Source: a virus. Taken from it: a stretch of 21,398 bases of DNA. This document shows positions 864 through 18,626 of this stretch, one piece after another. Below the pieces are notes generated by a model that did no database searches, was not told where the DNA came from, and was given only the letters and a program-made list of their open reading frames with translations. The DNA lies in IMG/VR virus record IMGVR_UViG_3300031787_009930, positions 1-21,398 of that record, one strand, 5' to 3'. Positions within the stretch are counted from its first letter, which is position 1. Every line of letters starts with the position of its first letter. The position numbers were made by a program, and so were the translations under genes.

Positions 864-889
864 AAAAAGGGGGTTTATTCCCCCTTTTT
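862..889. terminator. Bidirectional hairpin terminator between convergent genes
   Basis: A5-G5, a 6-base TTTATT loop, then C5-T5 form a 10-bp stem with an A tract on the left and a T tract on the right, so it can end transcription from both sides. The hairpin overlaps the end of the clp gene: the clp stop codon (875-877) lies in the loop, and the last clp codons form one arm. The peptidase stop (861-863) abuts the other arm. Confidence 0.85.
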
Positions 890-2917
890 CTTTCTTGATT
901 TTTTCTGTTTCTCCTCAACAATTTTGATTGTAATCTCATTGTTTTCAACATATAGGATATATGGAATATTTTCTTTCAAGTCACCTTTAAGAACTTCTTC
1001 GGATACATAATCCTCAATTTTGTCTTGAATTGCTCTCTTCAACGGTCTAGCCCCGTAAGTTTCGTCAAATCCGACTTCTGAGATTAAATCAATTACTGAG
1101 TCCTCATAACTGATATTGTATTTTAATGAAACCAATCTACTACAAAGTTTGTCAATTTCAAGTTTAACAATTTTTCTAATATCTTCTTTTTGTAAACTAT
1201 TGAATACAATTACTTCATCAATACGGTTAAGGAATTCAGGTGCGAAAAACTTTTGAAGTTCTTTCTTTAGAATGTCTCTTTTTAATTCTTCTTGAATGTA
1301 AGTATTTGTATCATTTTTGAATCCAATACCGACACCAAACTCTTGTAATTTTTTAGCTCCAATATTTGAAGTCATAATTATTACACAGTTTTTGAAATTG
1401 ATTTTTCTACCTAATCCATCTGTAATATGACCATCATCTAAAACTTGAAGTAATGTTGAGAAGATGTCTTTGTTAGCTTTTTCAATCTCATCAAATAATA
1501 TTACTGAGTATGGTTTGTTTTTAACTTGTTCAGTTAATTGACCACCTTCATCATAACCAACATATCCCGGAGGAGCTCCTATCAATCTTGAAATTGTATG
1601 TTTCTCTTGGAATTCTGACATGTCAATTCTAATCAAATTGTCCTCACTTCCAAAAATTTGTTTTGCCAATTCTTTAGCTAATAATGTTTTACCAATACCT
1701 GTAGAACCTAAAAAGATGAAAGAACCGATAGGTCTGTTAGGGTCTTTAATGCCTAATCTATTTCTTCTAATAGCTTTTGCGATTTTAGATACCGCTGGTG
1801 ATTGACCAATAACCTTATCAGATAAGTTATCCTCAATTGAGGATAGAACTTTTGTTTCGTCAGAATTTAACTTTGAAATAGGAATTTTGGTCATGTTAGA
1901 TACAACTTCATATACCATTTCTAATGTTACTTCTTTCTTTTGAAGAGACATTTCTTCTTCAAACTTTTTCTTCTCTTCATCTAATTTATTTAAGATTTTC
2001 TTTTCTTTATCTCTTAAATTTGCCGCCTCCTCATAATTTTGTTTTTTAACAACTTCAATTTTTAACTTCTTAATATCAGAAGCTTCCAATTTCAATTTTT
2101 CAATTATTTCTGGCATTTTAACATCAACCTGACTTCTTGCACCTACTTCATCAATAATATCAAATGCCTTATCAGGGAATTCTCTATCTGTGATATATCT
2201 TTCAGCTAAATCAACACAAACATTTAGAACTTCATCATTGTATAATACTTTATGATAATCTTCATATCTGTCTTTTGTGTTTTTTAAGATTTCTAAAGTT
2301 TCATCTTTAGTTGCTGCGTCAACAATTACTTTTTGGAAACGTCTTTCTAACGCTCCATCTTTTTCAAAGTTTTTTCTATACTCATCTAATGTGGTTGCTC
2401 CAATACATTGGATTTCACCACGAGCAAGTGCTGGTTTAAAGATGTTAGATGCATCTAATGAACCCGAAGAGTTACCCGCTCCAACAATTGTATGGATTTC
2501 ATCAATGAATACAATGATGTTTGGTGCATTTTGAAGTTCTTCAATAATGACTTTCATCCTTTCCTCAAATTGACCACGATATTTTGTACCGGCAACTATT
2601 GATGTCATATCCAACGATACAATACGTTTGTCCATTAGATTTCTTGGACATTCACCATTGAAGATTTTAATTGCTAATCCTTCAGCAATTGCTGTTTTAC
2701 CACAACCTGGTTCACCAATAATAATTGGGTTATTTTTTTTACGTCTGGATAAAATCTGAGCAATCCTTTGGATTTCTCTTTCTCGTCCGACAACAGGGTC
2801 TAATTTCCCTTGTTCAGCCAACTTGATTAAATCTCTACTAAAATTATCAAGTACAGGTGTTGACGAGTCACCCGCTTTATTTTGTTTTTTACCGTCACCA
2901 TCTACAGATTCAATCAT
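875..2917 (-). CDS. ClpC/ClpA-type AAA+ protein unfoldase without N-domain
   Basis: Hsp100 ATP-dependent unfoldase with two AAA+ modules. D1: Walker A GEPGCGKT at 68-75, Walker B VFIDEIH at 136-142, arginine finger in ERRF near 191-194. A UVR-like coiled segment typical of ClpC lies at about 286-312. D2: Walker A GSTGIGKT at 404-411, Walker B ILFDEIEK at 473-480, sensor-2 GARP at 622-625. IGF at 531-533, after the MTSN sensor strand, matches the loop by which ClpA/C/X dock on ClpP. The usual N-terminal Clp repeat domain (about 140 residues, adaptor and substrate binding) is missing, and this is not a start-choice error: an in-frame TGA lies about 18 bases upstream of the ATG. At 680 residues it is shorter than ClpC (about 810-850). 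No clpP is in the window, so it probably partners with host ClpP (inference). The C-terminus is a basic KKSRKKKGE tail. Confidence 0.9.
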   Translation of the reverse strand: MIESVDGDGKKQNKAGDSSTPVLDNFSRDLIKLAEQGKLDPVVGREREIQRIAQILSRRKKNNPIIIGEPGCGKTAIAEGLAIKIFNGECPRNLMDKRIVSLDMTSIVAGTKYRGQFEERMKVIIEELQNAPNIIVFIDEIHTIVGAGNSSGSLDASNIFKPALARGEIQCIGATTLDEYRKNFEKDGALERRFQKVIVDAATKDETLEILKNTKDRYEDYHKVLYNDEVLNVCVDLAERYITDREFPDKAFDIIDEVGARSQVDVKMPEIIEKLKLEASDIKKLKIEVVKKQNYEEAANLRDKEKKILNKLDEEKKKFEEEMSLQKKEVTLEMVYEVVSNMTKIPISKLNSDETKVLSSIEDNLSDKVIGQSPAVSKIAKAIRRNRLGIKDPNRPIGSFIFLGSTGIGKTLLAKELAKQIFGSEDNLIRIDMSEFQEKHTISRLIGAPPGYVGYDEGGQLTEQVKNKPYSVILFDEIEKANKDIFSTLLQVLDDGHITDGLGRKINFKNCVIIMTSNIGAKKLQEFGVGIGFKNDTNTYIQEELKRDILKKELQKFFAPEFLNRIDEVIVFNSLQKEDIRKIVKLEIDKLCSRLVSLKYNISYEDSVIDLISEVGFDETYGARPLKRAIQDKIEDYVSEEVLKGDLKENIPYILYVENNEITIKIVEEKQKKSRKKKGE

Positions 2918-3295: not shown

Positions 3296-5608
3296 ATGAG
3301 TAAATTTGAATCTATATTAAAAAGTTTTCATTCTAAAGACAATCTTAATTCTAAGATTTGGAAAGAAAGTGGAAATGACATAACTATTAATCCTACAGTT
3401 AGAAAAAAACTTTTGGAAATTGCTAATGAATTTATTGAATTCCTAAAAGTTGATATTGTAGTTTCTTACATTATTATGACAGGTTCTTTGGCTAATTATA
3501 ATTGGTCAGAATTTTCAGATATTGATTTACATATTGTTGTTGATTTTGAACAATTTAGTAAAGAACAGTTACCATTATATGAAGAACTTTTTAGATTAAA
3601 AAAGACCTTATTCAATGACCAACATGATATCACAATTTATGGTTATGAGGTTGAATTATATGTTCAAAATGAATCAGAATCTCATTTTAGTAGTGGAGTT
3701 TTTTCAGTATTAAACGATGAATGGATTGTTGAACCAAAAAAAGAAGATGTAAAAATTGATATTGGTTTAATAAAAAATAAGGCAGAACAATGGATGAAAA
3801 TTATTGACGGTGTTATTGAAAACGCATCGGATGAACCACTTGATGAAGCTAAAAAAATCATTTCAAAATATAAGGATAAATTAAAAAAATATAGAACCTG
3901 TGGGTTAGAATCAGGTGGGGAATATTCTGATGAAAATTTAGTTTTTAAAATTTTAAGAAGAAATAACTATATTCAAAAGTTATTTGATTTTGAGGTTGAA
4001 ATGGAGGATAAAGAACTTTCTTTAAATGAAAGTAGAATGAAAAAAATAATACTTGAAGGTTCTAAAGATAGTTTAGACCCAAGTGTATTAAAAGCGTTAC
4101 AATCTGTTGAAACTACTTACGGAGTAAAAATAACTGATGATAATGTCAATGATGAATTAGCTCAAGAAAAACAAATCTACCCCGATAATTCAGGAATAGA
4201 TTCTTCAGCGTTATCCCAATTAAAAAAGTTATTATCTGATTTATATTCTAAATTCCCAAATGCACCTGAAGATTCTAACAGTAATTGTGATGGAGTTAAG
4301 GGTTGTGTTTCAGGATATAGAGGATATTCTACACAAGTTAAAACTTTTGGTAGTAAAATCAGTAGAGATGGTGGTGTCTCTAATAGACAAAAATTTTCAG
4401 CTTTACCAGGATTTTCTCAACATCACACAGGTAAAGGATTTGACATATTAAGTGTTGAACCATCATGGTGGAATAAAAATTCTGACATTAAATCATGGGT
4501 TGCTAATAACGTGTGTAAGTATGGATTTAAAGTATCTTATCCAACGGACGGAGTTTTAAGAAGTGCCGAACCTTGGCATTTATTTTATACTGGACAATTT
4601 TGTGGTGGAGATAAAGAAGAAAAAACTGTTGAGAAAGAAAAAACAGTAGAAAAAGAAAAATCATCTGAAATAGTTAAAACTGAAAAAGGTGATTTAATAT
4701 CCGACATAACAAATTTTTCAAAAAGTTCACGAGTATTAACTAATTTAAAAAAAGAAGGTGGTAGATTATCTTTCAATCAGGAAGTTCAAAATTTACAAAA
4801 AGCTTTACAATTTTTAAAATATTCTTTACCAAAATGGGGGGCTGATGGTAAATTTGGTAATGAAACAGAATCAGCATTAAAGAAATTTGAATCCGCAAAT
4901 GGATTAGAAGAAGATGGTAAATTTGATTCTGAAGATGCGGAAATTTTAGTTAAAAAGTTAATTAGTTCAGGATACGAAAAAACTGATGACCAACAAATAC
5001 AAGTAACTCCAAGTGAAGTGGAAAAAGATAAAGTTGTTGCAACTACAACTAATGATGATGAATATGTTGTTTTAATTCCACCAAACTATCAGGGTAAAAA
5101 TGTTCACGTATTATTTGGAGGTTCTCATACATCAGGGTATTCAAAAAATAGTTTTAAAACTGAAGCTATACAAAAATATGGTAATATTTTGAAACCTTAT
5201 GCTACTAACACTATAATTGTGGTAACACATCATATGAATACCGTAAGTAATGTGCAAAAATATGTTAGTGAAAAATACGGTGCAAATGTTACATCTCTCG
5301 CAGGGTTTTCACAAGGTGGTAAAGAAGCTTGGAGACACGCATCAGATAGTTCATATAAATTAGTTGGGTTAATTGACCCATCAACATATCAGACAGATGT
5401 TCAGTTTGGTAGTGGTACTTATTTATACTGCGACCCTAAAAACTGGGGGAAAACAGGATTTTACGGAGAGACAAGGAAAAAATTAGAATGGTATTGTGAT
5501 AACAAAGAAAAATATTCTGGTCACGTAACTTGTTTTGATAAAGGTGGATGGCATATGAATTTTGGTATTTTAAAATCGTTCTACGACACATACGGTTCAA
5601 TGATTTAA
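3296..5608 (+). CDS. Four-domain fusion: nucleotidyltransferase, VanY-like peptidase, peptidoglycan-binding, serine hydrolase
   Basis: A 770-residue protein. (1) Residues ~35-145: nucleotidyltransferase fold with G63-S64 and D75-x-D77 (GSLANYNWSEFSDID). (2) Residues ~295-432: D,D-carboxypeptidase/endopeptidase of the LAS/VanY type, with Zn ligands H376, D383 (SQHHTGKGFD) and H428, and catalytic E425 (SAEPWH). (3) A charged linker with TVEKEK repeats, ~437-462. (4) Residues ~493-555: PG_binding_1 domain (VQNLQKAL, GADGKFGNET). (5) Residues ~588-770: alpha/beta-hydrolase-like domain with nucleophile elbow G670-F-S672-Q-G-G, probable D694 and H753. LNESRMKKIILEG at 243-255 looks like an old N-terminus joined to the first domain. 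No signal peptide or membrane helix. Likely a virion or lysis enzyme that cuts host peptidoglycan; the job of the first and last domains is unknown. Domains 2 and 4 are the firmest. Confidence 0.8.
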   Translation: MSKFESILKSFHSKDNLNSKIWKESGNDITINPTVRKKLLEIANEFIEFLKVDIVVSYIIMTGSLANYNWSEFSDIDLHIVVDFEQFSKEQLPLYEELFRLKKTLFNDQHDITIYGYEVELYVQNESESHFSSGVFSVLNDEWIVEPKKEDVKIDIGLIKNKAEQWMKIIDGVIENASDEPLDEAKKIISKYKDKLKKYRTCGLESGGEYSDENLVFKILRRNNYIQKLFDFEVEMEDKELSLNESRMKKIILEGSKDSLDPSVLKALQSVETTYGVKITDDNVNDELAQEKQIYPDNSGIDSSALSQLKKLLSDLYSKFPNAPEDSNSNCDGVKGCVSGYRGYSTQVKTFGSKISRDGGVSNRQKFSALPGFSQHHTGKGFDILSVEPSWWNKNSDIKSWVANNVCKYGFKVSYPTDGVLRSAEPWHLFYTGQFCGGDKEEKTVEKEKTVEKEKSSEIVKTEKGDLISDITNFSKSSRVLTNLKKEGGRLSFNQEVQNLQKALQFLKYSLPKWGADGKFGNETESALKKFESANGLEEDGKFDSEDAEILVKKLISSGYEKTDDQQIQVTPSEVEKDKVVATTTNDDEYVVLIPPNYQGKNVHVLFGGSHTSGYSKNSFKTEAIQKYGNILKPYATNTIIVVTHHMNTVSNVQKYVSEKYGANVTSLAGFSQGGKEAWRHASDSSYKLVGLIDPSTYQTDVQFGSGTYLYCDPKNWGKTGFYGETRKKLEWYCDNKEKYSGHVTCFDKGGWHMNFGILKSFYDTYGSMI

Positions 5609-9670: not shown

Positions 9671-9677
9671 TATTTAT
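9671..9677 (+). promoter_or_regulatory. TATTTAT motif before terminase
   Basis: TATATTTATTAATAAAGG lies just after the terminator and ends 10 bases before the ATG at 9688. A terminator followed directly by this motif is what a new transcription start would look like. AAAGG before the ATG is the nearest thing to a Shine-Dalgarno sequence in the window. Confidence 0.45.
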
Positions 9678-9687
9678 TAATAAAGGT

Positions 9688-11448
9688 ATGACTAAAGAAC
9701 AAGTAATGATTGAGTATGTAAGATGTATGAAAGATACACCTTATGCTCTTAAAACGTATTTACAAACTTACGATAATACTGTGTCAAGATATGTTCCATT
9801 GGAACTATTTCCTGACCAAATTAGTTTGTTAAAAGATTATGAAGATTATAACGAAAATATTGCTTTAAAATATAGACAGGCGGGTGTATCTACAGTAACC
9901 GCTGCTTGGGTTTCAAAAAAATTAGCATTTGCTAAAAAAATAAAACCTGAAAAGATTTTGATTATTGCCAATAAACTTGATACATCACAAGAAATGGCAA
10001 ACAAAATCAGAGCGTTTATTGGTCAATGGCCCGACTGGGTTGGTATTGATTTTGCCGCTGAAAAAAATTCACAAAAACATTATAAATTAAATAATGGATG
10101 TGAAGTTAAGGCGGTTGCGACATCTAAAGATGCCTTGAGAGGTTTTACTCCGACCATATTGATTTTTGACGAGGCGGCCTTCATTGAGGCCGATAGTGAT
10201 TTTTGGGCGGCTTGTATGGCATCCCTATCTACGGGTGGTAAAGTAATAGTTGTGTCAACACCAAACGGGTATGACCCAATCTATTATGAAATTTACGACC
10301 AAGCAAACAGAAATATGAATGACTTCAAAATTTCTGAAATGTATTGGTATCGTGACCCAAGATACACAAGAGATTTATATATGGTTAAGACAAAAGATAT
10401 TATTCATTATCTTTTGAATAAAGAAGAATATAATGTTAGTGATATTATTAGTTGGGAACCAATAGAATTTTCAGATAGGAACTATGATGATTTAAAAAAA
10501 ATTATTGAGGACGGTTACAAACCATGTTCGGCTTGGTTTGAAAGTATGGTGAAAAAACTTAAGTACGACAAACGTAAGGTTTCTCAAGAGTTAGAGTGTA
10601 ATTTCTTAGGTTCGGGTGATAACGTATTTGATTCTAATATGATGCAAAATATTAGAGAAAATATGATTCGTGAACCACAAAACAAGATGATGGGAAACTC
10701 ATTATGGATATGGAAGGAACCTGTATTAGGTCACAAGTATGTTATGGGTGTTGACGTTTCAAGGGGAGATAGTGAGGACTTTAGTTCTTTCCAAATCATT
10801 GATTTTGATGAGAGAGAACAGGTTGCGGAATTTGTTGGAAAACTACCTCCTGATACTATGGCTGAGATATGTTATAAGTGGGCAAATATGTATTCTTGTT
10901 TCATCGTGATAGATATTACGGGTGGTATGGGTGTTTCCACGTCAAGGAAATTACAAGAAATGGGTTATAAAGATTTATATGTTGATGGTGTTGACACAGC
11001 AAATAAATGGAAATACGACCCAAAGGCAACTGAAAAAATTCCTGGAATCAATTTTAATAATAAACGTGTTCAAATAATTGCGTCGTTTGAAGAGGCATTG
11101 AGACATGAATTTAAAATTTATAGTTCAAGATTGTTCAACGAAATGAATACATTTATTTATGTTAATGGACGACCTGACCACCAAAAAGGACAACATGATG
11201 ACTTGATTATGTCACTAGCTATGGCTTGTTATGTTGCTGAATCTTCATTTACAAGTTTAAAAAGAGTTACCGAACAAACAAAGGCGATGTTGGATTCATG
11301 GAGTGTTGCCAATAACGATAATGTTAGTAAACAAATTGAATTCAATCCTGTAATACCAACTCTTACTGATAATATGAATCAATCAAGTAGGAATAGTTAT
11401 TCAAAAGAGGATTATATGAAATACGGTTGGCTATTTGGAGTTAGGTAA
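9688..11448 (+). CDS. Terminase large subunit (T4 gp17-like)
   Basis: Packaging motor ATPase and headful nuclease. Motifs in order: variant Walker A RQAGVST at 63-69 (no lysine after the glycine; the arginine at the front may replace it, as in many phage terminases), Walker B ILIFDEAAF at 158-165 with D161 and E162, and coupling motif VVSTPNG at 188-194. The RNase-H-like nuclease domain starts at about 350, with acidic residues D356 (MGVDVSRGD), D409 (IVIDITGG) and D504/D505 (GQHDDLIMSLA). The length (586) is close to T4 gp17 (610). It is preceded by a terminator and a TATTTAT motif, and its stop is immediately followed by the next motif and gene. Assignment is secure. No small terminase is recognisable in the window. 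Confidence 0.97.
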   Translation: MTKEQVMIEYVRCMKDTPYALKTYLQTYDNTVSRYVPLELFPDQISLLKDYEDYNENIALKYRQAGVSTVTAAWVSKKLAFAKKIKPEKILIIANKLDTSQEMANKIRAFIGQWPDWVGIDFAAEKNSQKHYKLNNGCEVKAVATSKDALRGFTPTILIFDEAAFIEADSDFWAACMASLSTGGKVIVVSTPNGYDPIYYEIYDQANRNMNDFKISEMYWYRDPRYTRDLYMVKTKDIIHYLLNKEEYNVSDIISWEPIEFSDRNYDDLKKIIEDGYKPCSAWFESMVKKLKYDKRKVSQELECNFLGSGDNVFDSNMMQNIRENMIREPQNKMMGNSLWIWKEPVLGHKYVMGVDVSRGDSEDFSSFQIIDFDEREQVAEFVGKLPPDTMAEICYKWANMYSCFIVIDITGGMGVSTSRKLQEMGYKDLYVDGVDTANKWKYDPKATEKIPGINFNNKRVQIIASFEEALRHEFKIYSSRLFNEMNTFIYVNGRPDHQKGQHDDLIMSLAMACYVAESSFTSLKRVTEQTKAMLDSWSVANNDNVSKQIEFNPVIPTLTDNMNQSSRNSYSKEDYMKYGWLFGVR

Positions 11449-11460: not shown

Positions 11461-14400
11461 ATGGGATTTTCATCAAGAAAGAGAACAAAAAGTATTTACA
11501 TGGGGTCAAAGTTAAGTGTCCCTGGTCAAGGTATATATACGGCTAAATTAACTCCGTCTGAAAAGACTCAAGTTAACATACAAACTAATAGAGAACCAAG
11601 ACCATCGTCAACACCAAAACCGGTGGTAAGTTCAACTCCTACACCGACACCAACTCCTAGTACAAGTCCTGTAAGTGTAACACCAACACCAACAGTAACT
11701 ATTTCAGTTACACCTACTTTAACACCAACTATTTCAGTTACACCTACTTTAACCCCAACACCAAGTCCTTCATTTATACCACCAACACCATTTATCGGTA
11801 TATGGAGAACAACAGGGTCTTCTGAAACTATTACATTACCATTCAAAATTAGTGGAACGTATAGTGGAACAATTGATTGGGGTGATGGTAATACATCAGT
11901 TAACTCATATGGTAATAGAATACATATCTATGATACCCCAGGTGACTACACTGTAACAATATACGGAGTGGTAAATGGTTTTGGATATGTGTTTGATGAT
12001 ATTGGAAGTGGTGAAACTTTAAAATTAATAGAGATTCAACAATGGGGGGCCCAATTTAATTTAGGTAGTGATTATAACTATGGTCGTTTTATGGGATGTT
12101 CAAATTTAACTTTAACAGGAGTTACTGATACATTAAATCTTAATGGTACTATTGATATCATGGCAATGTTCTCGGATTGTAGTAATATTACGACAATACA
12201 AAATATTAATAATTGGGACGTTAGTAACATTAACAATCTATTATTTATGTTTAAAGATACACAATTTGACCAAGATATAAGTGGTTGGGATGTTTCAAAC
12301 GTTACTAATATGAGAGGTATGTTTTATAATTCATCATTCAATCAAGATATTAGTGGATGGAATGTGTCGGGAGTTACCGATATGTTTAGTATGTTCCAAG
12401 GTACACAATTTAATCAAGATATAAGTGGTTGGGATGTTTCAAACGTTACTAATATGTCAGGTATGTTTAATAATACACCATTTAATCAAGACATTAGTGG
12501 ATGGGATGTATCCTCTGTGACAAATATGGGTTTTATGTTCCTATCAACACCATTTAACCAAGATATTAGTGGATGGGACGTTTCAAAGGTAACAAATATG
12601 GGTCAAATGTTTCAAAATTCATCATTCAATCAAGATATTGGTAAATGGAATGTGTCTGGAGTTACAGATATGGGTTCCATGTTTTGGTCAGCATTGTCAT
12701 TTAATCAAGATATTAGTGGTTGGGATGTTAGTAATGTAACAAGTATATTCGGTATGTATGGTATGTTTTTTAGTGCCACGTCATTTAACCAAGATTTAAG
12801 TAGTTGGTGTGTACCATTAATACCTTCATTACCTCCATTTTTTGACGATAACACACCTTCTTGGGTACTACCTAGACCAAATTGGGGAACTTGTCCACCA
12901 TTTATTAGTATTTGGAGAACAACTTCACCAAATGAAACTATAACATTACCATACGAAAATACAGGAACATATGATGGTACTATTGATTGGGGTGACGGTA
13001 ACACTTCAGGTAATTCATATTCAAATAGAACACATACTTATTTAACACCTGGTGATTATACAATAACAATATCAGGTGATTGTGTTGGTTTTAGATTTAA
13101 CGATAGTGGTGATGATACAAAAATTAGAGAAATTACTCAATGGGGTAGCAAATTTAGATTAGGTAATAATGGATATTATTTTGCGGGATGTTTTAATTTA
13201 GTTTTAACAGGTGTTACTGATGTATTAAATTTACAAGGAACAGATAACTTAACAAGTATGTTTGTAGGATGTAGTCAAATAACTACTGTTAATAGAATGG
13301 ATGAATGGGATGTCTCAAATGTAATAAATATGAATTCAATGTTCCTTAATGCAACTAGTTTTAATCAAGACATTAGTAGTTGGGATGTTTCTAATGTTAC
13401 GATTATGACAGCAATGTTTTTAGGTACACTATTTAACCAAGACATTAGTAGTTGGGATGTTTCAAGTGTAACAGATATGGGAAGTATGTTCTCATTTTCT
13501 CAATTTAATCAAAATATAAGTTTATGGAATGTGTCAGGAGTTACTAATACTTCATTTATGTTTGCGATTACACTATTTAACCAAGATATTGGAGTATGGG
13601 ATGTCTCAAATGTTACTTACATGTATGGTATGTTCCAAGGTTGTGTACCATTCAACCAAGACATTAGTAGTTGGGACGTTTCTAATGTTACCAATATGGA
13701 TTACATGTTTTATAATACATCATCATTTAATCAAGATTTATCTTATTGGTGTGTAGCATTAATCCCTTCATTACCTGACAACTTTGACACAGGAGCATCT
13801 TCATGGGTATTACCTAAACCAGTATGGGGAACTTGTCCCACACCTCCATTTATTAGTATATGGGACACTACTAAAACTTCAGCAGGGTCATCAAGTTCTA
13901 ATCAGGTGTCTCTACCTTTAGACTCATTTGGAATTTATAATGGTACTATTGATTGGGGTGATGGTAATATTAGTGCGAATACTTTCGCAAATAAAACTCA
14001 TACGTATTCATCACCAGGTGTTTATACAATAACCATATCAGGGACAAGTATTGGATTTGGTCCATTTAATAATGGTGGTGATAGACTTAAATTGATTGAA
14101 ATAACTAAATGGGGAAATTTTACTTTTCAAGGAACTTCTTTACAAGGTTATTGGTTCTCAGGATGTCAAAATTTAAAATTATCTGGAGTTACCGACTCTA
14201 TTACTTTAGGTTTTACAACTGATTTAACTTCAATGTTTAATAATTGTACTTCATTAACTACAATAAACAACTCAAATAATTGGGATGTGTCAAGTGTTCA
14301 ATTTATGGGTAATATGTTTTTAAATTGTAATCAGTTTAATGATTCAGGTATTACATCTTGGGATGTGTCAAACGTAACTAATATGAATGGTATGTTTTTT

Positions 14401-14532
14401 CTTAACACATTATTTAACCAAGATTTAAGTGGGTGGTGTGTTCCATTAATACCGTCATTACCAACAAACTTTGATACCGCCGCAACTTCTTGGGTATTAC
14501 CTAGACCAATTTGGGGAACTTGTCCACCTTAA
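11461..14532 (+). CDS. BspA/DUF285 repeat protein with three PKD-like modules, probable virion adhesin
   Basis: A 1023-residue protein. A basic head (MGFSSRKRTK) with no signal peptide is followed by a Thr/Pro/Ser linker (~48-108) and three modules starting at about 111, 481 and 797. Each opens with FI(S/G)IW, a PKD-like beta domain with TIDWGDGN and GDYT(V/I)TI, then 24-residue DUF285/BspA repeats (FNQDISGWDVSNVTNM type), and closes with a W-C-V ... WGTCP cap whose two cysteines may pair. Repeat numbers are about 8, 6 and 2. Such proteins are usually secreted, surface-attached proteins of Bacteroidota and Firmicutes; here there is neither an export signal nor a sorting domain, and it sits between terminase and portal. 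A capsid- or tail-borne host-binding protein is the best guess (inference). Alternative: a morons-type cargo gene released by lysis. Confidence 0.85.
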   Translation: MGFSSRKRTKSIYMGSKLSVPGQGIYTAKLTPSEKTQVNIQTNREPRPSSTPKPVVSSTPTPTPTPSTSPVSVTPTPTVTISVTPTLTPTISVTPTLTPTPSPSFIPPTPFIGIWRTTGSSETITLPFKISGTYSGTIDWGDGNTSVNSYGNRIHIYDTPGDYTVTIYGVVNGFGYVFDDIGSGETLKLIEIQQWGAQFNLGSDYNYGRFMGCSNLTLTGVTDTLNLNGTIDIMAMFSDCSNITTIQNINNWDVSNINNLLFMFKDTQFDQDISGWDVSNVTNMRGMFYNSSFNQDISGWNVSGVTDMFSMFQGTQFNQDISGWDVSNVTNMSGMFNNTPFNQDISGWDVSSVTNMGFMFLSTPFNQDISGWDVSKVTNMGQMFQNSSFNQDIGKWNVSGVTDMGSMFWSALSFNQDISGWDVSNVTSIFGMYGMFFSATSFNQDLSSWCVPLIPSLPPFFDDNTPSWVLPRPNWGTCPPFISIWRTTSPNETITLPYENTGTYDGTIDWGDGNTSGNSYSNRTHTYLTPGDYTITISGDCVGFRFNDSGDDTKIREITQWGSKFRLGNNGYYFAGCFNLVLTGVTDVLNLQGTDNLTSMFVGCSQITTVNRMDEWDVSNVINMNSMFLNATSFNQDISSWDVSNVTIMTAMFLGTLFNQDISSWDVSSVTDMGSMFSFSQFNQNISLWNVSGVTNTSFMFAITLFNQDIGVWDVSNVTYMYGMFQGCVPFNQDISSWDVSNVTNMDYMFYNTSSFNQDLSYWCVALIPSLPDNFDTGASSWVLPKPVWGTCPTPPFISIWDTTKTSAGSSSSNQVSLPLDSFGIYNGTIDWGDGNISANTFANKTHTYSSPGVYTITISGTSIGFGPFNNGGDRLKLIEITKWGNFTFQGTSLQGYWFSGCQNLKLSGVTDSITLGFTTDLTSMFNNCTSLTTINNSNNWDVSSVQFMGNMFLNCNQFNDSGITSWDVSNVTNMNGMFFLNTLFNQDLSGWCVPLIPSLPTNFDTAATSWVLPRPIWGTCPP
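12211..12813 (+). repeat. DUF285 array 1, about 8 units of 72 bp
   Basis: Units are 24 codons (72 bp), each with W-D/N-V-S ... M-F-F-N-Q-D. Within it, 42 bases at 12271-12312 recur exactly at 12415-12456 (144 bp = 2 units apart), and 24 bases at 12328-12351 recur at 12616-12639 (288 bp = 4 units). Units 2 and 6 also share the NVSGVTDM variant, which suggests block duplications. Confidence 0.9.
13303..13752 (+). repeat. DUF285 array 2, about 6 units
   Basis: Same unit as array 1, mostly as FNQDISSWDVSNVT. Units are more diverged at the DNA level than in array 1. It ends in the cysteine cap of module 2. Confidence 0.85.
14275..14430 (+). repeat. DUF285 array 3, about 2 units
   Basis: The shortest array: two full W-D-V-S units, one with an inserted DSGITS segment, then the cap motif of module 3. 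Confidence 0.8.
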
Positions 14533-14581: not shown

Positions 14582-16381
14582 ATGGAAAACAATCAAAATA
14601 ATCAATTAACGGTTTGGCAAAAATTATCCCAAGCATTTGGGCCTAATTCTTTACTGAATCAAGATTATCCAACTTACAAATACGATAAAGAGGAATTATT
14701 AAAAACCACTTCTAAACAAGAATTTGATAAAGAACTTTTACAAGCTCAACAAACATATTATTTAGCAAATCAGTGGACTAAAATTGAAAGTAATTTATAT
14801 ACTCAAGCAGTATATTACGAACCAACTCGTTTAGCGTCGTTCTATGATTACGAGTCAATGGAATATACTCCTGAGATATCTGCAGCTTTAGATATCTATG
14901 GTGAAGAATCAACAACTGTTGACCAAAATGGTTATATGTTACAGATTTATTCTGAATCAAAACGTATCAAATCAATCTTGGCGGATTTATTTAACAACGC
15001 ATTAGACTTAAACACCAATTTACCTATGTGGACAAGAAACACATGTAAGTATGGTGATAACTTTGTTTACTTAAAATTGGACGCTGATAAGGGAGTTGTT
15101 GGATGTATGCAATTACCAAACATTGAGATTGAACGTCTTGAAAGGGGTATGGCTGCAAAATCTCAAAATGTTGACGAACCAAAAGAAAATAAAGGTTTAA
15201 GATTTAAGTGGAAGGCTAAAGACATGGAATTTAATTCATGGGAAATGGCTCACTTTAGATTATTAGGTGATGATAGAAAACTTCCTTATGGTACTTCTAT
15301 GTTAGAAAAAGCAAGACGTATTTGGAAACAATTATTGTTGTCTGAAGATGCGATGTTGATTTATAGAACGTCAAGAGCACCTGAAAGAAGGGTGTTTAAA
15401 GTCTTTGTTGGTAACATGGATGATAAAGATGTTGAACCGTATGTACAAAGAGTTGCCAATAAGTTCAAAAGGTCTCAAGTTGTTGATAGTAACACAGGTA
15501 ATGTAGATATGAGATTCAACCAAATGGCGGTTGACCAAGATTACTTTATACCTGTTCGTGATGCTGCGGCAGCAAGTCCTATTGATACTTTACCTGGTGC
15601 TCAGAACCTTTCTGAGATTGCCGATATCGAATATATCCAAAAGAAATTATTAACAGCTCTTCGTGTTCCTAAAGCGTTTTTAGGGTTTGAAGAAGTAGTT
15701 GGTGATGGTAAAAATTTATCATTACAGGATATTCGTTTTGCAAGAACAATTAACAGAATTCAAAAATGTATGATTGCAGAGTTAAATAAAATTGCAATTG
15801 TTCATTTATTTATTTTAGGATTTGAAGATGAGTTAAATAATTTTACTTTAGCACTTACAAATCCATCGACACAAGCTGACTTACTTAAAATTGACGTTTG
15901 GAAAGAAAAAATACTTCTATACAAAGACGCAGTTACCGCTATTGAGGGTATTGCTCCTGTATCTGTTTCTTGGGCTAAGAAACATGTTTTAGGATTCTCA
16001 GATGAAGAAATTAAACTTGATTTACAACAACAACGTATTGAAAAAGCGGTTGGTGCTGAGTTAACTAACACCGCAACAATCATTGCTCACACTGGAATAT
16101 TTGATAACGTTGATAAACTTTATGGAACTAAGTCAGGTAGTACCTCATCTGCGGGAACCACACCTCCACCACCACCTGGTGGTGAATTAGGAGGAACACC
16201 AACGCCACCACCGGCAGGAGGACCTGAAGGAGGATTACCTGAAAGTGAGAAAAAAGATAATTACAATATTCTTTTAGAATCTGACGGTTTCATTGATGAT
16301 GATTCTTTCATTGATTTATCAAGAGGAAAAAATTATTTAGGTGAGATTGAAGAACAATTGAGTAAAATATTAAGAGATTGA
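14582..16381 (+). CDS. Portal vertex protein (T4 gp20-like)
   Basis: A dodecameric portal that nucleates prohead assembly and forms the DNA channel docked by the terminase. At 599 residues it is slightly longer than T4 gp20 (524). Family-like features: the N-terminal EPTRLASFYDYESMEYTPEI segment with SAALDIYGEES (~80-110), a central wing and stem region, and the conserved TLPGAQNLSEIADIEYIQKK then LLTALRVPKAFLGF (~338-371), typical of gp20 proteins. The C-terminal tail has a Pro/Gly-rich stretch (~523-552), then LPES and LLES, possible prohead-protease cuts, and ends in a helix. It follows the DUF285 gene and precedes an unknown gene at the place where T4 has genes 67/68. Assignment is secure. 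Confidence 0.93.
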   Translation: MENNQNNQLTVWQKLSQAFGPNSLLNQDYPTYKYDKEELLKTTSKQEFDKELLQAQQTYYLANQWTKIESNLYTQAVYYEPTRLASFYDYESMEYTPEISAALDIYGEESTTVDQNGYMLQIYSESKRIKSILADLFNNALDLNTNLPMWTRNTCKYGDNFVYLKLDADKGVVGCMQLPNIEIERLERGMAAKSQNVDEPKENKGLRFKWKAKDMEFNSWEMAHFRLLGDDRKLPYGTSMLEKARRIWKQLLLSEDAMLIYRTSRAPERRVFKVFVGNMDDKDVEPYVQRVANKFKRSQVVDSNTGNVDMRFNQMAVDQDYFIPVRDAAAASPIDTLPGAQNLSEIADIEYIQKKLLTALRVPKAFLGFEEVVGDGKNLSLQDIRFARTINRIQKCMIAELNKIAIVHLFILGFEDELNNFTLALTNPSTQADLLKIDVWKEKILLYKDAVTAIEGIAPVSVSWAKKHVLGFSDEEIKLDLQQQRIEKAVGAELTNTATIIAHTGIFDNVDKLYGTKSGSTSSAGTTPPPPPGGELGGTPTPPPAGGPEGGLPESEKKDNYNILLESDGFIDDDSFIDLSRGKNYLGEIEEQLSKILRD

Positions 16382-16400: not shown

Positions 16401-17117
16401 ATGAAATTCGGTATTTTAAAATCAAAAGTTGATAGAAGATTATTAGAATCTTACTCTAATCAAACTTTCCAAAAAGAATTGAAAACATTCAAAAAATTAG
16501 TTTTGGAAAATTCAAACATAAGTAAATTGTTTTACTTGTATGATGAATTAAAAACTAATCAAGGTTTGAACGAATCTGTTCTTGAAGATTATATTAATGA
16601 GTGTACTAAAATTTATGAGAACACCATTAGTAAAATTAAACCACAATCTATTGAAAAAATCAAAGGTTGGGTTAAGAATATCAATTCAAAAAATGATTAT
16701 GAAGATATTGATAATTTATTCTCAAAAAATGTTCTTACTATTGAATCTAAAATCAAAAGTAAAAATCTTATTAAAGAATCTTTAAGTAAAAAATCTATAG
16801 ATAAAAAAGAACCTATCAAGATTCCAATTTCTTCTATGATTAATGTTGCAAACAACACTATTAAAAATTATATTGAAAATTTAAATGAGACTGAAAAAAA
16901 AGAACTTATTAAATTTTTGAATACTGATGAAAAAGAATTGGAAGTAAAATTTGAAACTTTAAAAGAGAATGTTGTAAAAAAATTAAACGTAATTAAAGAA
17001 TCTGAAAATGATTCAGAAGTTATCACCAAAATTGATGAAACAATTAAGACGGTTAATTCAGAAAAATACGACAAACTTAATTACTTCAAATTATCGGATT
17101 TAAACGATAATCTTTAA
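16401..17117 (+). CDS. Helical phage protein between portal and protease, probable prohead core component
   Basis: A 238-residue, Lys/Glu/Asn-rich, almost wholly helical protein with no known domain. The N-terminus (MKFGILKSKVDRRLLESYSN, then LVLENSNISKLFYLYDEL) looks conserved. Four (L/I)-x-E-S sites are visible: LLES at 14-17, LNES at 56-59, IKES at 124-127 and IKES at 198-201. Position after gp20 and before gp21 corresponds to T4 gp67/gp68, which are prohead core proteins cut by gp21; the high charge and the sites fit that, but sequence homology cannot be shown here. Its stop overlaps the bS21 stop by 3 bases (TTAA), with no hairpin between the convergent genes. Confidence 0.6.
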   Translation: MKFGILKSKVDRRLLESYSNQTFQKELKTFKKLVLENSNISKLFYLYDELKTNQGLNESVLEDYINECTKIYENTISKIKPQSIEKIKGWVKNINSKNDYEDIDNLFSKNVLTIESKIKSKNLIKESLSKKSIDKKEPIKIPISSMINVANNTIKNYIENLNETEKKELIKFLNTDEKELEVKFETLKENVVKKLNVIKESENDSEVITKIDETIKTVNSEKYDKLNYFKLSDLNDNL

Positions 17118-17302
17118 TTCTCGTTTTTCATTTTCTGAACGTAAATTGCCTTATTGATTTGATTTCTACGATTAGTAGATTTTTTAACAAAAGTTTTACG
17201 GTTAATTAATTCCTGACTTTGACGAGTCTTAATAACCTTATTTTTCAATTGTTTTAAGGCTTTCTCTATTGATGTGTTTTTATCTAATTTAACTATTAAC
17301 AT
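17114..17302 (-). CDS. rpsU: Small-subunit ribosomal protein bS21
   Basis: A 62-residue basic protein. The start MLIVKL, a helix with IEKALKQLKNK (12-22), and KT...ELINRKTFVKKSTNRRNQINKAIY (25-54) follow the Bacteroidota bS21 pattern, as does the length (63-64 is usual). In Bacteroidota, bS21 with bS18 and bS6 holds the 16S 3' end so that the anti-Shine-Dalgarno sequence is hidden; Tyr54, which I recall as one of the contacting residues in the Flavobacterium structure, is kept at the same position. Phage bS21 genes are known from several phage groups. This gene is on the opposite strand to the head genes around it, with TAnnTTTG upstream instead of TATTTAT. No Shine-Dalgarno sequence precedes it, unlike the report, from memory, that flavobacterial rpsU has one used for autoregulation. 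Confidence 0.88.
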   Translation of the reverse strand: MLIVKLDKNTSIEKALKQLKNKVIKTRQSQELINRKTFVKKSTNRRNQINKAIYVQKMKNEN

Positions 17303-17318
17303 ATTTTACAAATATCTG

Positions 17319-17326
17319 CAAATATA
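17319..17326 (-). promoter_or_regulatory. TAnnTTTG-like -7 box for bS21
   Basis: On the minus strand TATATTTG lies 16 bases before the bS21 ATG. No convincing TTG -33 box is seen about 20 bases upstream, so it is a partial match only. Confidence 0.3.
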
Positions 17327-17347
17327 AAAAAATTTTGACTTGTAATA

Positions 17348-17354
17348 CATTTAT
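17348..17354 (+). promoter_or_regulatory. Near-match to the TATTTAT motif
   Basis: CATTTAT (one mismatch) lies in the 95-base gap between the divergent bS21 and 17398 genes. The same gap also holds TTG at 17335-17337 and TATTTTTT at 17359-17366, a 7-of-8 match to TAnnTTTG at 21-base spacing, so either type of promoter could serve. Confidence 0.2.
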
Positions 17355-17397
17355 ACCTATTTTTTTAAAAAATAAACTTTAGGAAAAATGAAAATTA

Positions 17398-17859
17398 ATG
17401 AAAAAAGGCAAAACCTCAAAAATACATGGTTTTAAAACAGCTAAAACAATTTACGGAACAGTAGATTCATTTGAATTAAAATCACTGTATTTAAACATTC
17501 AAACATGGGTTGAACCAAAAGAAGAGTTAGAGAATTGGACAAGAGTAGTATCAAACTTAAGTAGAGCCATAAGACATTCAGTATACGAGTCGGTAAACAC
17601 GGGAATATATGACAATAAATTTATTGTTGATTTAGATTTAAGGTCATCAGGATTATCAAAAGGGAAAAAATCATTTTTAAATTTAGAAGTAAATTTATAT
17701 TTGTTAGATACAACTTTAGATTTTAAATCAAAAGAAGTTAAAGATTCTCTTAAAGAAATTTGTAAAAGTATCTTCAAAAATAATTTTTCAAATAACAAAT
17801 ATTTTTCGTTTCACTATTCAAAAACAAATAAAACGAAACCAATAACGACACAAAGTTAA
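17398..17859 (+). CDS. Conserved hypothetical phage protein
   Basis: A 153-residue protein with a basic start (MKKGKTSKIHGFKTAK), a central beta-rich core (SLYLNIQTWVEP, FIVDLDLRSSGL, LNLEVNLYLL) and a helical end. The start is fixed by a TGA two codons upstream; an ATG at 17388 is in another frame and opens only a short frame. AGGAAAA ten bases upstream is a weak Shine-Dalgarno-like run. The gene lies between bS21 and the prohead protease. The order of strands and the double aromatic-Arg segment WTRVVSNLSRAIRHSVYE (47-64) suggest a compact alpha/beta fold. No family recognised. Confidence 0.6.
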   Translation: MKKGKTSKIHGFKTAKTIYGTVDSFELKSLYLNIQTWVEPKEELENWTRVVSNLSRAIRHSVYESVNTGIYDNKFIVDLDLRSSGLSKGKKSFLNLEVNLYLLDTTLDFKSKEVKDSLKEICKSIFKNNFSNNKYFSFHYSKTNKTKPITTQS

Positions 17860-17868
17860 TCTTTTCAA

Positions 17869-17875
17869 TATTTAT
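17869..17875 (+). promoter_or_regulatory. TATTTAT motif before prohead protease
   Basis: CAATATTTATTATATAAACC lies 16 bases before the ATG at 17892. Confidence 0.4.
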
Positions 17876-17891
17876 TATATAAACCATTGAA

Positions 17892-18626
17892 ATGAACTTA
17901 GAAATAATAAAACCTGGTCAAGTTGGGAAAGGAATTCTTATCGAGTACGATGCGGGATATATCAATCCAAAAGAGAACGGTAATGAGAAGATAATTAAAG
18001 AATCTAAAAATTTTTTAGACCACTCAAAACCATTTGAATTTTACGCAGTTTTACAAAAGTATGACACTCCAAATAGAAACGGTAGAATATACCCTGAAAA
18101 AATATTAAAAAGAGAAGCAGACAATTATAAAAAAATGATTGAGAAGGGAACTTCCCTTTCTGAATTAAATCACCCTGAATCGTCATTAATTGACTTAGAT
18201 AGAGTTTCACACATCATCACCGAAGTATGGTGGGATGGAAAAGTATTAATGGGTAAGTTGAAATTGTTAACATCACCAGGATTTCACGAAAGAGGAATCT
18301 GTTCAACAAAAGGTGATTTGGCAGCTAACTACTTAAGACAAGGAGTTACTCTTGGTATTTCTTCTCGTGGTGTAGGTTCATTAAAAAAAGTTGGTGAACA
18401 AAATGAAGTACAAGATGACTTTGAACTTATTTGTTTTGACCTTGTTTCTTCACCATCAACACCTGGAGCATATTTGTTTACAGAACCTAATGAAAGATTC
18501 AACTTTGAAGAGAATTTAGAAGAAGAAAACAAAATGAGAGCAGAAAGAACAACAGGTATGAGCGGAGATTCTATTGATAAACAAAAAGAACTGATGAAAA
18601 AATTGTCCGCATACCTTGATAGATAA
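17892..18626 (+). CDS. Prohead core protease (T4 gp21-like, peptidase S77)
   Basis: A serine protease that in T4 is built into the prohead, activates itself, then cuts scaffold, core and capsid proteins after (L/I)-x-E. Residues 55-203 hold the family pattern: NRNGRIYP (61-68), ELNHP with H94 as the probable catalytic histidine, DRVSHIITEVWWDG (103-116), LGISSRGVGS (154-163) with the catalytic serine at 157 or 158, and FELICFDLVSSPSTPGA (177-193) with D183. The length (244) is near T4 gp21 (212). The C-terminal ~45 residues are charged and may be a removable tail. It stands directly upstream of two small genes and the scaffold. Assignment is secure. Confidence 0.93.
   Translation: MNLEIIKPGQVGKGILIEYDAGYINPKENGNEKIIKESKNFLDHSKPFEFYAVLQKYDTPNRNGRIYPEKILKREADNYKKMIEKGTSLSELNHPESSLIDLDRVSHIITEVWWDGKVLMGKLKLLTSPGFHERGICSTKGDLAANYLRQGVTLGISSRGVGSLKKVGEQNEVQDDFELICFDLVSSPSTPGAYLFTEPNERFNFEENLEEENKMRAERTTGMSGDSIDKQKELMKKLSAYLDR

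Follow-up and report, generated by a model that had tools for sequence, protein, structure and literature searches.

A Shine-Dalgarno-less bS21 gene in the head block of a T4-like, probably jumbo, phage and its possible replacement of host bS21 in Bacteroidota ribosomes

Ribosomal protein bS21 is reported as the commonest ribosomal protein encoded by viruses, and the locus studied here raises the question of what a phage bS21 does when its gene is embedded, on the opposite strand, among head genes, and whether it is subject to the feedback control of its host counterpart. We analysed a 21,398-nt stretch of viral DNA (IMG/VR record IMGVR_UViG_3300031787_009930; hereafter the window), for which a preliminary description made from the letters alone had claimed a phage bS21 that lacks a Shine-Dalgarno (SD) sequence, escapes autoregulation and may be expressed at a different time from the head genes, and had proposed a profile search, an alignment and a tree as checks. 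The features of the locus are collected in Table 1.

Table 1. Features of the bS21 locus and its surroundings (positions in the window)
Feature	Position	Strand	Basis
Terminase large subunit	9688..11448	(+)	Profile matches
TATTTAT, putative late-type motif of terminase	9671..9677	(+)	
T4-like portal protein (gp20)	14582..16381	(+)	Pfam-type profile match
ORF16401, conserved head-block protein, converges on bS21	16401..17117	(+)	ORF, relatives
TTAA in which bS21 (-) and ORF16401 (+) overlap tail-to-tail by 4 nt, shared by both stop codons	17114..17117	(.)	
Phage bS21 gene, two predicted helices (12-36, 41-61), Tyr54	17114..17302	(-)	ORF, profile matches, alignment, AlphaFold2
Divergent intergenic region bS21/ORF17398; SD-less bS21 leader	17303..17397	(.)	
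TATATTTG, host-like -7 box of the preliminary description	17319..17326	(-)	Found here only in closest clade
TTTTGAC (GTCAA core on bS21 strand), assigned to ORF17398 promoter	17333..17339	(+)	
TATAAATG, candidate ancestral bS21 -7 box, degenerate here	17348..17355	(-)	Inferred
TATTTTTT, candidate -7 element of ORF17398 promoter	17358..17365	(+)	Inferred
AAATAAAC, conserved in ORF17398 leader, kept also without bS21	17370..17377	(+)	
ORF17398, bS21_CN of Chen et al.; conserved, without known family or confident fold match	17398..17859	(+)	
TATTTAT, putative late-type promoter motif of protease gene	17869..17875	(+)	48/48 distinct leaders
Prohead protease (Peptidase_S77)	17892..18626	(+)	Profile matches

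The gene, a 62-aa ORF with an ATG start, proved to encode bS21, as had been claimed. In the profile search, it matched Pfam PF01165 above the cutoff (E = 5.4e-8; 32.9 bits against 27 bits; residues 4-56 on positions 2-54 of the 55 of the profile) and PHROG 21469 'ribosomal protein S21' (1.1e-4), and a phmmer comparison aligned it end-to-end, from residue 1 to 60, with F. johnsoniae bS21 (PDB 7JIL chain z, 1e-7). Homology is taken from this single-sequence 7JIL search; the PDB profile search with A2, which includes the F. johnsoniae sequence, is partly circular. The score against TIGR00030, the bacterial equivalog of NCBIfam, was 24.7 at a cutoff of 28.95, which is compatible with a divergent copy of bS21. 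The AlphaFold2 model (pLDDT 92) shows the two-helix fold of bS21.

Compared with F. johnsoniae bS21, the phage protein retains Tyr54 and a basic second half and diverges in helix 1 and the 21-37 region, largely as previously described, with the changes R21N, F23V, D24I, G27R and T28Q; it is ~39% identical to the Flavobacteriales rpsU product. Phage-specific residues occupy positions 21-28 in the family alignment, the first helix and loop being of the KSKVIKTRQS type in phage bS21 versus KRKFDKTGT, and position 54 among 42 phage representatives is Tyr in 34, His in 7 and Phe in 1. In the tree, which for a 62-aa protein is poorly resolved within groups, these 42 sequences are separated by a 100/100 branch from 22 bacterial ones, in line with the separate clustering found by Chen et al. 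(2022; PMC9723584). The gene is under purifying selection, with a median dN/dS of 0.15 over 111 pairs of relatives.

In the head block, bS21 is flanked by the convergent ORF16401 and the divergent ORF17398 and is encoded on the strand opposite to the portal, ORF16401, ORF17398 and protease genes, which bears out that it is transcribed against the head genes. The opposite-strand gene together with ORF17398 and the protease was found in 58/59 portal relatives with enough downstream sequence, and the TTAA stop-codon overlap with ORF16401 is kept in 29/30 distinct relatives; a terminator-like site was sought at the ORF16401/bS21 junction and none was found. This core arrangement is already published. 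Chen et al. (2022) described jumbo myophages of Bacteroidota (clades a-e), with predicted freshwater Bacteroidota hosts, in which bS21 is reversed among the terminase, portal and protease genes, and reported the aromatic residue 54/Tyr54, the divergent N-terminal helix, the divergent neighbour bS21_CN and a proposal that host bS21 is replaced. No difference in kind from their phages was found in the window, where bS21 is likewise reversed, with a hypothetical gene on either side and TerL, portal and protease nearby, and has an aromatic residue 54, a divergent N-terminal helix and bS21_CN beside it; in size, the window, as a fragment, has 21 kb, the contig of the L038 relative 322 kb and their genomes ~293-331 kb. 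The swap into host ribosomes, the reverse-strand site, Tyr54 and the N-terminal divergence in the preliminary description had therefore been published before; the last three are also seen here, and the swap stands as a proposal. The present analysis adds the absence of the SD, a split in promoter motifs and relatives that keep bS21_CN without bS21. The words 'promoter' and 'autoregul' have no occurrence in PMC9723584, and neither promoter or SD work on phage bS21 nor the SD/regulatory contrast described below was found in the literature searched.

ORF17398 is highly conserved and is predicted with a pLDDT of 89; the family search placed it in no known family, its one match being an uncharacterised myovirus protein, and the fold search against the PDB gave no confident match (top Z 7.5, within the usual background). 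Six distinct related phage loci (L293-L297 and L299; L158 is the same contig as L293) have no bS21, retain ORF17398 with its TTTTGAC leader and carry a terminator-like hairpin at the usual place of bS21. Therefore, bS21_CN is not strictly tied to bS21, and that six related phages manage without bS21 is a counterpoint to its replacing the host protein. A related phage bS21 in another gene context (L070:6001-6198 (+)) has neither the GTCAA motif nor an adjoining ORF17398. The constant position of bS21 in the head block would also suit a protein without ribosomal action, either a virion component, since packaging into virions was raised by Chen et al., or a moonlighting RNA-binding protein kept beside the head genes; this we consider very unlikely, given the purifying selection, the conserved bS21 residues including Tyr54 and a leader devoid of the head-gene motif described below.

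The regulation of the gene was approached through its leader, the pairing energy of the 25 bases 5′ of the start codon with AUCACCUCCUUUCU being used as the measure of an SD. At −1.1 kcal/mol, the bS21 leader of the window has no SD, just as the preliminary description had stated, and this extends across the family, as 59 distinct phage bS21 leaders had a mean of −2.4 kcal/mol, a best value of −7.3 and none below −8. In contrast, 69 distinct Flavobacterium rpsU leaders had a mean of −19.8 kcal/mol, and 69/69 fell below −13 kcal/mol, the level taken to mark an SD-autoregulated rpsU and not reached by the window gene. Among the broader Bacteroidota, 4/9 rpsU leaders lay below −13 kcal/mol in a small sample picked by Pfam score, so that the argument from feedback presupposes a host resembling Flavobacterium. 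The genes of the 322-kb relative averaged −1.6 kcal/mol versus −1.3 for shuffles, with no notable SD excess, and phage genes are in general SD-less. Comparison of the SD energies thus shows that the phage bS21 leader resembles those of other phage genes and is unlike host rpsU; a selection of phage mRNAs through their SDs is unsupported, since these genes are SD-less. Two genes of the same relative do have very strong SDs, L242:6228-6920 (-) at −13.6 and L257:8221-8643 (-) at −14.7 kcal/mol, the former encoding a homing-endonuclease-like protein that was perhaps recently acquired.

The significance of this contrast comes from F. johnsoniae, in which rpsU, with its extended SD, reaches its best translation on bS21-free ribosomes, and bS21-free or Y54A ribosomes favour rpsU'-gfp (McNutt et al., 2023; PMC9976891). 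The autoregulated Flavobacteriales rpsU and the phage gene both encode a bS21 with Tyr54, but the host gene has an extended SD of about −20 kcal/mol by our measure and the phage gene none. Phage bS21 is therefore without the element on which the reported autoregulation in F. johnsoniae depends. The earlier claim of escape from autoregulation holds as far as this known feedback element is concerned; escape itself would be a further step, because the missing SD bears on the element only.

The intergenic region from which bS21 and ORF17398 diverge is strongly conserved among relatives. The host-like -7 box TATATTTG assigned earlier to bS21 does exist at 17319, but it is confined to the closest clade and was rejected as a conserved promoter; in the window, TANNTTTG occurs 50 times versus 35.7 expected by chance. 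Where the window has TATAAATG, many relatives carry TATATTTG/TATATTTA on the bS21 strand, and this upstream TATATTTG/A box was present in ~45% of loci with bS21 versus 0/6 of those without it (Fisher p 0.04, uncorrected for relatedness), which is only suggestive of its being the bS21 promoter, distinct from the 17319 box. The most constant intergenic element is GTCAA, found on the bS21 strand in 58/59 leaders. Because the six bS21-less phages keep it, as TTTTGAC, 5′ of ORF17398, where they also have AAATAAAC (with a base change in one phage), the GTCAA element belongs to ORF17398, upstream of which a TTGACT-17-TATTTT match is also found. GTCAAAA was accordingly discarded as an element of the bS21 leader or a site for a regulator, being kept by these six phages and not enriched in phage genomes.

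Two recurrent upstream motifs were found in the leaders of the 322-kb relative (L242-L257): a host sigma-A-like TTTG-N19-TATCTTTG, and TATTTATA(A), located ~20 bases before the start and without a conserved -35, and their sequences suggest host-type and phage-specific promoters, respectively. When TATTTA[TA] was scored within 50 bases of the start in head-block leaders of relatives, it was found in 48/48 distinct protease leaders and at frequencies of 0.96, 0.89 and 0.51 for ORF16401, portal and terminase, so that portal, ORF16401 and protease leaders together had it in 146/154. The bS21 leaders had it in 7/56 (0.12; shuffles 0.14), which is no excess, and ORF17398 leaders in none, at or below shuffles; Fisher values comparing these counts ignore the relatedness of the loci. 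The upstream motifs of bS21 are thus unlike those of the head genes. From its position and the genes that it precedes, TATTTA[TA] is putatively termed late-type, a label thinly backed by the finding that genes with the other, sigma-A-like motif include a primase-like and an SPFH-domain gene.

This result reopens the question of when bS21 is expressed. Chen et al. took bS21 as late, as its reads are high where those of capsid genes are high, and together with the head-block location this speaks for their proposal that it helps a burst of structural protein synthesis late in infection. Yet their expression level is the total bases mapped per gene, without a strand term; as ORF16401 runs into bS21 with no terminator, antisense read-through could count toward bS21. 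Such a contribution does not prove the late reading wrong, and bS21 could be early or late, but with the head-gene motif no more frequent in bS21 leaders than in shuffles, we regard a late helper as unlikely. The different timing hinted at in the preliminary description gains indirect support from the same motif result and conflicts with the published late reading.

Taken together, we favour, with a probability of roughly 60%, that the gene encodes a functional bS21 of a T4-like Bacteroidota jumbo phage that takes the place of the host protein, leaves the anti-SD hidden and, being without the known feedback element, escapes feedback. Phage bS21 would occupy the bS21 site of host 30S subunits, and the anti-SD end of 16S rRNA would stay hidden, as expected from the retained basic C-terminal helix and aromatic residue 54, leaving ribosomes blind to SDs. 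Such ribosomes would suit a phage whose own mRNAs are SD-less, while the strongly SD-dependent rpsU mRNA would remain poorly translated, so that the host could not restock its ribosomes with host bS21; the phage gene, having no SD, lacks the element through which feedback is known to act. The diverged first helix and loop may in addition alter which SD-less mRNAs start well. A more far-reaching version, which we hold only tentatively and think rather doubtful, is an open-loop replacement in which the SD-less gene, standing outside the head-gene promoter class, would supply a protein that loads onto ribosomes, keeps the anti-SD hidden and thereby silences host rpsU, so that ribosomes stay locked in their phage form until infection ends.

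Entry of a phage bS21 into ribosomes has a precedent in Pelagibacter phage HTVC008M, whose bS21 was shown to be incorporated into ribosomes of E. coli (Mizuno et al., 2019; PMC6375957). Like the present protein, it is encoded by a myovirus, but its lineage and host are Proteobacterial, and the literature examined holds no such ribosome-entry test or demonstration for a phage bS21 in a Bacteroidota ribosome. Because the E. coli ribosomes with pelagiphage bS21 made ~5% of the control protein in vitro, poisoning instead of redirection is conceivable, phage bS21 then entering ribosomes mainly to inhibit host translation as a shut-off factor; this would also fit the residues of helix 1 and the loop that are peculiar to the phage proteins, and a leader without the head-gene motif, which would permit expression before the late phase. 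We nevertheless judge poisoning improbable, in that the large late output of the phage demands working ribosomes, the E. coli experiment was made across phyla, with incompatibility put forward by its own authors, and Tyr54 and the C-terminal helix are kept as for normal function. For replacement, the SD contrast makes ribosome hijacking directly testable, the question being whether phage bS21 keeps rpsU off while itself escaping control, and F. johnsoniae offers an established assay based on the preference of bS21-free ribosomes for rpsU mRNA.

Other genes of the window were also recorded. The gene at 875-2917 (-) encodes a ClpC-like double AAA+ ATPase, which has a UVR motif and, similar to a ClpP-docking loop, a GIGF stretch; phage-encoded proteolysis of host bS21 had been speculated on by McNutt et al. 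(PMC9976891). Between terminase and portal, 11461-14532 (+) encodes a 1023-aa repeat protein that contains PKD-like stretches and numerous FNQDISGWDVSNVTNM-type repeats, which by eye are DUF285/BspA-like, and the product of 3296-5608 (+) is a fusion protein in which a nucleotidyltransferase-like N-terminus is joined to a VanY-type peptidase and to a peptidoglycan-binding domain.
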